A stretch of 64,000 nucleotides of DNA. Origin: Solirubrobacteraceae bacterium (lineage in GTDB: Bacteria; Actinomycetota; Thermoleophilia; Solirubrobacterales; Solirubrobacteraceae). Numbering within the stretch: position 1 is the stretch's first letter; the number at the start of each line of letters is the position of its first letter. Shown piece after piece: positions 3,346 to 56,628 of the stretch. Both the position numbers and the translations under genes were made by a program. Where the stretch lies: assembly GCA_030447505.1 (NCBI GenBank), contig JAUJOT010000003.1:248001-312000 (forward strand). The letters run 5' to 3'. The notes beneath the pieces were generated by a model. It made no database searches. It was given only the letters and a program-made list of their open reading frames with translations, and was not told where the DNA came from.

Positions 3346-3522
3346 CTGGCGCTCGCGGCCGTCGCCGACACGATCTGGAGCGTCGTCGGGATCCTCGGCG
3401 GCGCTGCCGGAATCGCCGTGCTCGTCTGGGCGGCGCGCAACGGGCACGACGACCGCGACGCCGAGGACGCGGCGCGCGACTTCTACGACCTGCACGGACG
3501 CTGGCCCGACGAGCCGGCCTGA
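3346..3522 (+). CDS. Small single-pass membrane protein
   Basis: Unrecognised 58-residue protein with one clear membrane segment (SVVGILGGAAGIAVLVWAA) followed by a charged cytoplasmic tail ending DLHGRWPDEPA. Short actinobacterial membrane proteins with a similar tail are known to me, but no function is. No ATG, GTG or TTG precedes the membrane segment in frame after the rplI stop. The nearest plausible start is CTG at 3346, five bases after that stop; a start at 3271 inside rplI is the only conventional option and would prepend a Ser/Arg-rich, shadow-like sequence. The stop overlaps the start of the next gene (CTGA). Function unknown; start uncertain. Confidence 0.55.
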   Translation: MALAAVADTIWSVVGILGGAAGIAVLVWAARNGHDDRDAEDAARDFYDLHGRWPDEPA

Positions 3523-4577
3523 GCTCGATCGACGACGCCGCGCGGACGCTCGCGCTGCGGCTTCGCTCGCAGGCTCTGAGCGGACCGCGGGAGACGAGCG
3601 CCGAGGCGGTCGTGCGCCGTGTCGTGGGCGTCCAGGCGCAGGAGCTGGGGTTCGCGCGGCTCGCGTTCCGCCCGCGCTGTGGCGCGGGTGTCGTGGCCTC
3701 CGATGTCGATGCCGCGCTGCGCGATCGCGCGCTCGTCTGGACGTGGGCGATGCGTGGCACGCTGCACCTCATCGCGGCGCAGGACGCCGGCTGGATCCTC
3801 GGCCTGCTGGGCCCGATCTTCGCCACACGCGGACGGCCGCGGCGGCTGGCGCTGGGTCTCGACGACGCGCTCTGCGAGCGCGCGCTCGGCGTCCTGCGCG
3901 GCGTGCTTGCGACGGAGGGCCCACAGACGCGAGCGGCGCTCGCGGCACGGTTGCCGATCGAAGCGCGCGGCCAGGCGCCGGCGCACCTGCTGGCGTACGC
4001 GGCGATGCGCGGCGTGATCTGCCGCGCGCCGCCCGCGCAGGGGCGCGAGCCGACGTATGTGCTGCTCGACGAGTGGCTCGGGGGCTCGCCGATGCCCGCC
4101 GACGAGGACCGCGCGCTGGCCGAGCTCGCGCGGCGCTACCTCGCGGGCCACGCGCCCGCTACGCCAGATGATCTCGCGACCTGGTCCGGGATCGGCCTGC
4201 GCCGCGCGCGGCTGGCGTTCGCGCTGCTCGGATGCGGCGTGGGCGACGTCGGCGAAGGGCATCGGGCATCGAGGTCCGTCCGGGCGGACGTACGCCCGTC
4301 GACACCGCGCCACGTCACCCTGCTCGGGCACTTCGACCCGTACCTGCTCGGCTATGCCTCGCGCGACCTCGCGCTCGCTCGTCGGTTCGCGACGCGCATC
4401 CAGCCGGGCGGTGGCTTCATCGCGCCGGCGATCCTCGCCGACGGCCGCGTGATCGGCAGCTGGCGGCGCGGCGAGCGCGACTGGCTGGAGCCCTTCGAGC
4501 CTCTGACCGACGACGTCCTGGAGCGCGTCCGGCGAGAGCGCGCGGACGTCGAGCGCTTTCTCGCGGCCGCCCCATAG
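3519..4577 (+). CDS. AlkZ-like winged-helix DNA glycosylase (HTH_42 family)
   Basis: 352-residue member of the HTH_42/YcaQ-AlkZ family, which excises alkylated or cross-linked bases from DNA. It keeps the paired-glutamine catalytic motif in VGVQAQE. A conventional GTG exists at 3612, but that would put the motif at residues 8-10 and remove the first helix. Reading back in frame gives a family-like helix (ARTLALRLRSQAL) to a CTG at 3519, placing the glutamines at 39 and 41, close to the 37/39 I recall for Streptomyces AlkZ. The CTG overlaps the TGA of the preceding gene. The carboxy-terminal half contains the expected HFDPYLLGYASRDLAL stretch. The biological substrate is unknown. Confidence 0.8.
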   Translation: MSSIDDAARTLALRLRSQALSGPRETSAEAVVRRVVGVQAQELGFARLAFRPRCGAGVVASDVDAALRDRALVWTWAMRGTLHLIAAQDAGWILGLLGPIFATRGRPRRLALGLDDALCERALGVLRGVLATEGPQTRAALAARLPIEARGQAPAHLLAYAAMRGVICRAPPAQGREPTYVLLDEWLGGSPMPADEDRALAELARRYLAGHAPATPDDLATWSGIGLRRARLAFALLGCGVGDVGEGHRASRSVRADVRPSTPRHVTLLGHFDPYLLGYASRDLALARRFATRIQPGGGFIAPAILADGRVIGSWRRGERDWLEPFEPLTDDVLERVRRERADVERFLAAAP

Positions 4578-4682
4578 GCGTCCGAGCCGCATGCGAACCT
4601 GTGTTCGCCACCCACCGCCGCGCGACAAAGAATTCGTTCCCTCTGAGCGGACTGCGATGTCGCCGGCGACGTCTCGTCCGCC

Positions 4683-4688
4683 TACCCT
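4683..4688 (+). promoter_or_regulatory. Putative -10 element for dnaB
   Basis: TACCCT lies nine bases before the TTG start of dnaB, with no Shine-Dalgarno between them. This spacing suggests a leaderless or nearly leaderless transcript. No convincing -35 hexamer is seen 16-18 bases upstream, so this is a weak call. Confidence 0.35.
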
Positions 4689-54999: not shown

Positions 55000-55508
55000 C
55001 AGGACGTCGTCGCGAGGCGCAGCGCTTCCTCTTCCTCGGGCGAGAGCTTGAGCTCTCCCTTGCCCTCGGAGACCTGCTTGACGTACAGCCGCGCCTGGTC
55101 GCGGTGGTGGATCGACGACAGCACGACGCCCGAGCGCGAGCTGTCGAGCAGCGCGATCGACGTCGACTGGCGGCCCGACATCTCGTTGTAGGCGTCATAG
55201 CGGATCAGCCCGCAGTGCGAGATCGCCCCGTCGATGCGCGCTTCGGCGACGCCCATTCGCGCGTCGAGGCGCGCGGCCACGTCGGTGACGTAGTCGTGCA
55301 GCGTCTTGAAGTGCGCGTCGAGCGCGGCCGCGTGGCCGACGAGGTCGCTGCTGCCCCGCTCGCCGAGCACCACGCGCTGGTCAGCGCGCAGGCGGCGCAG
55401 CTGGCGATACAGGACGACGACCGCGACGATCGCGACGACGGCGAGCGCGGCGGCGGCCAGCGCGACGATGCCCACCGTGGAGCTCAGCTCGGCACCCATG
55501 CCGGCCAA
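54999..55508 (-). CDS. DUF4446 membrane-anchored protein
   Basis: 169-residue protein: an amino-terminal membrane helix (TVGIVALAAAALAVVAIVAV), a coiled-coil (VLYRQLRRLRADQRVVLG), and the conserved DUF4446 domain with ISHCGLIRYDAYNEMSGRQS followed by IALLDSSRSGVVLSSIHHRD and ARLYVKQVSEG. The family is widespread in Gram-positives; function unknown. Start MAGMGAEL is used, though the second Met is possible. The gene abuts pheA, and lies 13 bases after the next upstream gene. Confidence 0.9.
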   Translation of the reverse strand: MAGMGAELSSTVGIVALAAAALAVVAIVAVVVLYRQLRRLRADQRVVLGERGSSDLVGHAAALDAHFKTLHDYVTDVAARLDARMGVAEARIDGAISHCGLIRYDAYNEMSGRQSTSIALLDSSRSGVVLSSIHHRDQARLYVKQVSEGKGELKLSPEEEEALRLATTS

Positions 55509-55521
55509 ACGGTAGCGCGGG

Positions 55522-56628
55522 CTAGCTGCGCACGAAGAGCGCCGGGTAGCTGGCAGTGTTGTTGGCGGTGTTCTTCTCGCCGCCCACCGGCAGCACCTCG
55601 ACGGTGATCGTCACCGGCTCGCCGATCGGCGGCGCCTCTCGCAGCGGGATCGAGACCGTCGTCTCGGTCTTCGCCATCGTCTGATCGATCACCTTCTGCT
55701 CGGTGATCGGATCGCCGGCGCCGCGGATCCGCACGCGCACGCGGACCTCGCTCTCGGCGTTGTCGCCCTGGTTTGCGACCTTGACGTTGAAGGTCAGGTT
55801 GGAGGCCGCCGGGATCCGGTTGGCCTGCCCCGGCTGAAGCGTCACGTCGCCGACGCTGACGCCGAGCAGGCCGTGGCCGTGCAGGCCCGGCGCAGGCTCC
55901 GACGTGCCGGCGTCGCCGGCGCCGCGGCCGGCCTGCGAGTTGATCCGCCGGGCGACCGTCGAGGGCTGCAGCCAGCCGTAGTTCTGCACGAAGCTTGCGT
56001 TCGCGATCGTCTGGCCGCCGATCTCGTGCTCGTCGAGCACCTGCTTGATGAGCGCCGCGCCGCGCCGGTTGTAGACGACGTTGGCCGCGTCGAAGGCCTG
56101 GATCTCGCCGGCGATCGCGCGCACCGCGGGCACGGCGGTCGCGGAATCGCTCGACAGCGCCGCCGGCAGCTTCTCGGCGACCTTGCCCATCGCCTCCTGC
56201 AGCAGCGACAGCGACAGCAGCACGTTGCGGTGCGCGGGCCGCATCTCATCGGGGACGTCGATGCCCTCGGCCCGCCTTGTCAGCGCCTGGGCGCGGATGC
56301 GCAGCTGGTTGACCTCCGACTGCACGTCGGTCGACGGCGCGCCGCCGGCGCTGAGCGTGTCGTAGAAGGCGTCCGCGTTGGCGTCGGCGTCGCGCACGAT
56401 TCCCGAGACCGCGCGGTTGTAGTCCTTCAGCGCCTGCTCCTGGCGGCTGTCGAGGCAGCCGTTGATGCCGACGACGAGCAGCACGAGCACGAGGACGCCG
56501 ATCGCCAGCGCCGCGACGCGGCGCACCATGAGCTGCTGCGGATCAGACGGCGGCCCGATCGCCGCGGGTGCCGGACTGCGCGGCCGCGTGCGGGTCGTGC
56601 GAGGCTCGTCGTCGTCGAAGAAAGACAG
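55522..56628 (-). CDS. Membrane protein with CARDB-like extracellular domain
   Basis: 368-residue protein. A Pro/Arg-rich cytoplasmic amino-terminus (SFFDDDEPRTTRTRPRSP) precedes one membrane helix (VAALAIGVLVLVLLVVGING). A helical extracytoplasmic region follows, then a beta-rich CARDB-type domain (AASNLTFNVKVANQGDNAES, VTITVEVLPVGGEKNTANNT). Start: CTG at 56628 gives the natural MSFFDDDEP-like beginning and has AAGGAG seven bases upstream; the only conventional start, TTG 56703, lacks a ribosome site and adds unlikely residues. Divergent from the kinase gene, which may link it to cell-envelope signalling. Function unknown. Confidence 0.7.
   Translation of the reverse strand: MSFFDDDEPRTTRTRPRSPAPAAIGPPSDPQQLMVRRVAALAIGVLVLVLLVVGINGCLDSRQEQALKDYNRAVSGIVRDADANADAFYDTLSAGGAPSTDVQSEVNQLRIRAQALTRRAEGIDVPDEMRPAHRNVLLSLSLLQEAMGKVAEKLPAALSSDSATAVPAVRAIAGEIQAFDAANVVYNRRGAALIKQVLDEHEIGGQTIANASFVQNYGWLQPSTVARRINSQAGRGAGDAGTSEPAPGLHGHGLLGVSVGDVTLQPGQANRIPAASNLTFNVKVANQGDNAESEVRVRVRIRGAGDPITEQKVIDQTMAKTETTVSIPLREAPPIGEPVTITVEVLPVGGEKNTANNTASYPALFVRS

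Follow-up and report, generated by a model that had tools for sequence, protein, structure and literature searches.

Initiation at CTG is known in bacteria but rare. In E. coli, plasmid repA was the sole confirmed CTG start before ano was described, Ribo-seq suggested three more, and rpsL of Deinococcus deserti is another case (available sections of PMC5960689). An extract of PMC4633059 gives selection of ATT (9.8%) but not of CTG (0.03%) as a start codon in mycobacteria, and CTG, ATT and ATC were not enriched at initiation sites of M. tuberculosis in the accessible text of PMC9094748. The gene caller Prodigal is described in an excerpt of PMC2848648 as accepting ATG, GTG and TTG only, not CTG. 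Searches of the open-licence literature turned up no account of CTG initiation in Solirubrobacterales, and the available portion of PMC7014725 is silent on CTG. Here, a stretch of 64,000 nucleotides from a Solirubrobacteraceae genome (the window; G000:C10:248001-312000; GC 71.3%; genome of 3.84 Mb in 13 contigs) was analysed for genes starting at CTG. An earlier note on the window had proposed six such genes: an AlkZ-like glycosylase, wecB, tatC, menG, a GT-C gene and a CARDB-type gene. Judged from comparative sequence evidence, CTG is very probably a regular start codon, with a frequency close to that of TTG, in Solirubrobacteraceae and in at least one neighbouring family of the order; such regular use across a lineage would be the new part.

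Candidate CTG starts in the window

A CTG was read at all six proposed sites, 3519 (+), 14623 (-), 19043 (-), 21503 (-), 31672 (-) and 56628 (-), and the four proposed CTGA overlaps with the TGA of the preceding gene were present at AlkZ, wecB, tatC and GT-C. The menG start also reads CTGA, with the preceding frame closed by a TAG 4 bases 5' of the CTG; the CARDB CTG does not overlap the preceding gene. GAGG/GGAG-type sites were located 5' of the CTG of wecB, menG, GT-C and CARDB, as had been reported, at the distances given below. Profile searches agreed with the names wecB (TIGR00236), TatC, MenG/UbiE, GT87 and AlkZ-like. The CARDB gene had no Pfam or NCBIfam match at E 0.001, and its name is used as a label only. 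A small gene at 3346-3522, not named in the earlier note, was added as a seventh CTG gene. An Rfam scan of the window returned two tRNAs and nothing else.

CARDB-type gene, wecB and the small membrane-protein gene

55522-56628, minus strand: CARDB-type gene, read from CTG 56628-56626; start column NTG, third-position bias from the CTG
56636-56641, minus strand: AAGGAG, Shine-Dalgarno-like site 7 bases 5' of the CARDB CTG
13547-14623, minus strand: wecB, CTG 14623-14621, CTGA overlap; start column NTG and TIGR00236 match
14631-14634, minus strand: GAGG (sequence), 7 bases 5' of the wecB CTG
3346-3522, plus strand: small membrane-protein gene (58 aa) between rplI and AlkZ, CTG 3346-3348

Homologous loci of the CARDB gene were aligned (25 of 30), and the first column contained CTG in eight, TTG in eight, GTG in five, ATG in three and CAG in one. 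NTG was present in 24/25 loci and ATG, GTG or TTG in 16/25; the CAG exception, G005, carries TTG two codons downstream. Variation of the first base with the second and third fixed is the pattern of a start codon; a leucine codon would not be expected to show it. Over the 32 codons after the CTG, differences at codon positions 1/2/3 were 0/1/8 for G003, 0/0/10 for G005, 2/0/10 for G002 and 1/2/10 for G001; the third-position bias was weaker against G006 (3/5/18) and G004 (12/4/14), and the 12 codons preceding the CTG had none. Codon-like constraint starting at the CTG was shown for CARDB, and the other five proposed genes were not decisive in this respect. The CTG was kept in 6/7 genomes of the genus and in two genomes from a second family of the order; placing the start-codon label on the tree required four changes. 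AAGGAG also lay 5' of the CTG or TTG of CARDB in several relatives. A CTG start of the CARDB gene is well supported by these alignments.

For wecB, the start column was NTG in 30/30 loci (GTG 19, ATG 5, CTG 4, TTG 2), with ATG, GTG or TTG in 26 and CTG in the remainder. Position 1 of the TIGR00236 profile falls on residue 1 of the CTG-started WecB, and within the genus a GTGA overlap has apparently changed to CTGA. In G003, wecB also begins at CTG, and its first ATG, GTG or TTG does not come before codon +18. Eighty wecB loci were kept from named genomes, of which 79 were readable: ATG 44, GTG 20, TTG 4, CTG 3 and other codons 8. Each of the eight loci with other codons has an ATG 1 to 10 codons upstream, and of the three CTG loci, the one from Haloferax is preceded by an ATG at three codons, so that two remain (L261 and L264). 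The closest wecB relatives were titled mostly Solirubrobacteraceae or Solirubrobacterales, e.g. Conexibacter arvalis. Column and profile point to CTG as the start of wecB, which is likewise well supported. L244, titled as a Bifidobacterium breve MAG, contained a Solirubrobacteraceae-type wecB at 75% GC, and its title appears wrong.

The small gene, whose TGA overlaps the AlkZ CTG, was found in five species (G000, G003, G004, G005, G006), each with CTG at the shared start column. No ATG, GTG or TTG was found in its frame in G005 or in G006 (40 upstream codons examined in G006). The frame of G005 is closed by a stop 6 codons upstream of the CTG, with one further CTG between. A CTG start is well supported here also.

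menG, GT-C, AlkZ and tatC

20784-21503, minus strand: menG, CTG 21503-21501; a second CTG at +8 is possible
21515-21520, minus strand: GAGGGG (sequence), 11 bases 5' of the menG CTG
29981-31672, minus strand: GT-C (GT87-like) gene, CTG 31672-31670, CTGA overlap
31682-31685, minus strand: GGAG (sequence), 9 bases 5' of the GT-C CTG
3519-4577, plus strand: AlkZ-like glycosylase, CTG 3519-3521, CTGA overlap; ATC at 3528 possible
17799-19043, minus strand: tatC, CTG 19043-19041 (CTGA overlap) or ATC 19025-19023

The start column of menG held ATG in G006 and CTG in G003, and in G001 and G002 a CTG was found one codon earlier. In G005, menG has a TTG at +8 only, so the second CTG at +8 may serve as the start instead; that menG begins at one of its two CTGs can be held with high confidence. 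The GT-C CTG opens a signal-peptide-like stretch, conservation is weak and some relatives have a GTG within a few codons; the start is probably the CTG. At AlkZ, the stop overlap reads GTGA in G004, and a CTG start appears likely. For tatC, the first ATG, GTG or TTG is 102 codons in and the Pfam TatC match runs from residue 24, which calls for a non-canonical start; the CTG is common to G003, and G005 has CTAA in place of CTGA. CTG is only tentatively favoured over the nearby ATC as the tatC start.

Frequency of CTG starts in the genome

In 1.192 Mb of the genome, 1146 genes were called, and 448 tandem pairs were collected in which the upstream gene ends in TGA. Overlap-frame sites in these pairs were GTGA (97), ATGA (76), CTGA (67) and TTGA (7). 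Twenty-three of the 67 CTGA sites immediately precede an ATG, GTG or TTG. The other 44 were tested for no ATG, GTG or TTG within 13 codons upstream, the first one at least 9 codons downstream and a coding score of at least 2.5. Nine passed: tatC, a PIN-domain gene, mutY, GluQ-RS, IS3 OrfB, thiL, TsaE, GT-C and a 57-aa membrane protein (weak). The IS3 OrfB at C3:372229, which we take to be the expected product of programmed frameshifting, was dropped from the count. mutY was retained although its frame is broken: the mutY-like frame at L385:12216 (-) (G000:C7:452216) breaks after 61 codons. wecB and AlkZ did not pass this filter and were included on homology, which brings the total to about 10 CTGA-type starts in 1.19 Mb.

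Applied to relatives, the scan returned 3/165 pairs in stretches of the same genus and 2/52 in stretches of the same family. Control plasmid stretches returned 0/111 (S. clavuligerus, GC 0.718), 0/86 (C. metallidurans, GC 0.644) and 0/76 (R. jostii, GC 0.660). Against the pooled controls (0/273), Fisher tests gave P 0.02 for this genome (8/448, IS3 dropped) and P 0.01 for 13/665 pairs. A wider measure, coding signal over at least 9 codons and at least 6 nats upstream of the first usable ATG, GTG or TTG, was reached by 21/859 genes here, 11/306 and 7/109 in relatives, and 1/307, 1/183 and 0/133 in controls (pooled 39/1274 vs 2/623, P 1.5e-5). Some of the hits resemble frameshifts, insertion sequences or antisense frames, so this measure serves as an upper guide.

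Gene-by-genome rows were also inspected. In a stricter count, 10/329 rows lacked ATG, GTG or TTG near the modal column, and 6 of these 10 had CTG near the expected start; wecB of this genome was missed because of a GTG at +5. Beside the window, 51/62 called genes had homologue rows, and inspection by eye picked out thiL as a clear CTG start and one further gene as a possible ATC start. The constraint at CARDB, the NTG columns and the CTGA rate relative to controls place CTG starts above chance. The density of six in 64 kb does not carry over to the genome: 4 of the about 10 CTGA-type starts lie in the window (binomial P 0.0013), and the CTG share of genes here is estimated at 1 to 3 percent.

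Two of the genes found outside the window were as follows.

L408:19189-19611 (G000:C12), plus strand: PIN-domain gene following an antitoxin-like gene; CTGA, no ATG, GTG or TTG for 102 codons
L376:6639-7547 (G000:C7), plus strand: GluQ-RS; CTGA, next codon ATC, first ATG, GTG or TTG at +40

In profile matches, the family N-terminus falls within a few residues of the CTG in GluQ-RS, thiL and the PIN-domain gene, and about 10 residues after it in TsaE. In G006, thiL has a GTG start one codon downstream. The PIN protein had no match in PDB and none in plasmids. In G014 (L215 near 8027, +), the orthologue of the window gene at 19798-20778 begins with CTGA, where this genome has GTG; CTG starts would thus turn over between genera.

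Initiation machinery

The single initiator tRNA gene found carries a CAU anticodon on an anticodon stem of the usual GGG/CCC type; the stretches searched, among them all 45 Rfam tRNA places, contained no initiator stem with CAG. infC gave a family match well above cut-off and has a GTG start in this genome; it was considered as a CTG example and rejected, as, among 23 loci of which 21 were readable, it begins with GTG in 20 and with ATG in one. Since the initiator tRNA is ordinary, it probably pairs with CUG in the P site despite a mismatch at the first position, much as with GUG and UUG. The ribosome would be placed by the Shine-Dalgarno site at CARDB, and perhaps at menG, and by the preceding gene's stop codon in the four-base CTGA overlaps of wecB, GT-C, AlkZ and others. 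The first residue would probably be formyl-methionine. Such starts probably arose from GTG and TTG starts under GC bias and would be tolerated in genes for which moderate expression suffices. Median duplex energies of the sequence 5' of the codon were -5.6 for 11 CTG starts, similar to the -5.0 for 127 ATGA/GTGA starts, and -2.7 for 857 internal CTG codons.

Alternative explanations

Several results count against regular CTG initiation. The Shine-Dalgarno signal gives the 11 CTG starts only a marginal advantage over internal CTG codons (P 0.06); all three controls are plasmids and one alone matches in GC content; and at least two of the 21 genes of this genome flagged by the wider measure (murG, C7:597779) are false positives with ordinary starts. 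In a count over 53 start columns (234 ATG, GTG or TTG cells), CTG filled 3 of the 44 remaining cells; most of these 44 are shifted starts, so the generic count lends weak support. AlkZ of G003 starts at a GTG three codons downstream of the CTG column, aligned with ATC 3528-3530 here, and the tatC ATC at +6 aligns with the ATG of G005, G004 and many others. The earlier note had named downstream ATG or GTG starts in relatives as what would speak against the CTGs, and such starts were found for tatC (ATG at +6, G005) and AlkZ (GTG at +3, G003), both at columns that read ATC in this genome. Some of these genes may accordingly start at AUC, the column having changed from ATG or GTG, which is offered as a tentative alternative. 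It gains from a hydrolase at C10:348077 whose expected start reads ATC both here and in G005, although a TTG lies 7 codons upstream of the ATC here. tatC and AlkZ, however, also carry the upstream CTG, and the AlkZ overlap is GTGA in G004; ATC occupied 0/44 of the cells lacking ATG, GTG or TTG at well-defined start columns, and an ATC start is no option for CARDB, wecB and the small gene, all of which have NTG columns. A heme-exporter-like gene at C10:203849 (+), in L192, has an ATC or CTG start directly after a stop codon.

The CTGs could instead be internal leucines or non-coding, the true starts being ordinary ones up- or downstream. The earlier note had held that the N-termini can be reached only from CTG, which is not fully right: CARDB and GT-C have in-frame starts upstream, and tatC and AlkZ have the ATC codons described above. 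In this genome, non-CTG alternatives are present for CARDB (TTG at -25 and GTG at -23 codons), wecB (GTG at +5), menG (GTG at +13), GT-C (GTG at -75 and +13) and the small gene (GTG at -16, inside rplI, and at +24), and the Pfam AlkZ-like match begins only at GTG +31. The upstream CARDB starts, however, are missing in G002, G003 and G004, and constraint begins at the CTG; no usable ATG, GTG or TTG is left to wecB of G003, to the small gene of G005 and G006, or over the first 102 codons of tatC. We regard ordinary starts as quite improbable for the set. Assembly errors, broken genes or programmed frameshifts would explain two cases outside the window (mutY, and IS3 OrfB, for which frameshifting is expected), but CTG recurs in at least two separately assembled genomes for CARDB, wecB, menG, tatC and the small gene, and artefacts of this kind are exceedingly improbable as a general account. 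An initiator tRNA devoted to CUG, or a modified initiation factor, would account for the difference of this lineage from mycobacteria; against it stand the single CAU initiator tRNA with its usual stem, the lack of a CAG version in the stretches searched and the GTG-started infC with its clear family match, and it is very improbable.

The sequences show the start column of one and the same gene shifting among ATG, GTG, TTG and CTG with T and G fixed, and coding constraint setting in at the CTG; decoding by the ordinary initiator tRNA would be the simplest mechanism. Of the repeated CTG initiation first proposed, CARDB and wecB are well supported, as is the added small gene; menG, GT-C and AlkZ are probable; and tatC may start at CTG or at ATC. 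The fuller proposal, that CUG is a routine fourth NUG start in Solirubrobacteraceae and neighbouring families at about the frequency of UUG, perhaps with AUC too, is slightly favoured.

Consequences and comparison with known systems

Truncation by gene callers, also predicted by the earlier note, is supported by the exclusion of CTG by Prodigal and by the first ATG, GTG or TTG of tatC, which comes well inside the Pfam TatC match. Callers limited to ATG, GTG and TTG would trim TatC and remove most of its conserved N-terminal part, and would take 40 residues from GluQ-RS, including TGTLHLGN, presumably its HIGH-type signature. The gene at 3346-3522, the PIN-domain gene and other small genes of this kind would be lost or mis-started. 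Some proteins here are probably recorded too short or missed. If CTG is used as proposed, public gene sets of the order would lack small CTG-started genes and true N-termini, and the lineage would have undergone a relaxation of start selection not seen in mycobacteria. If start selection is looser, the lineage and mycobacteria would form a natural comparison for stringency (initiator tRNA, IF3, 16S, coupling).

E. coli repA and ano and D. deserti rpsL likewise involve CTG initiation; those are single genes, whereas several per genome, conserved across species, were found here. In the four-base ATGA and GTGA overlaps of translational coupling, CTGA takes the same place here and differs in the start codon, and GTGA is exchanged for CTGA among orthologues of wecB and AlkZ. 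Mycobacteria, as far as the available portions of the cited reports extend, are similar: they too are actinobacteria of high GC content that start genes at ATG, GTG and TTG, and coupling is frequent in them. They differ in that CTG was neither selected as a start (0.03%) nor enriched at initiation sites there, whereas here it is apparently used about as often as TTG.

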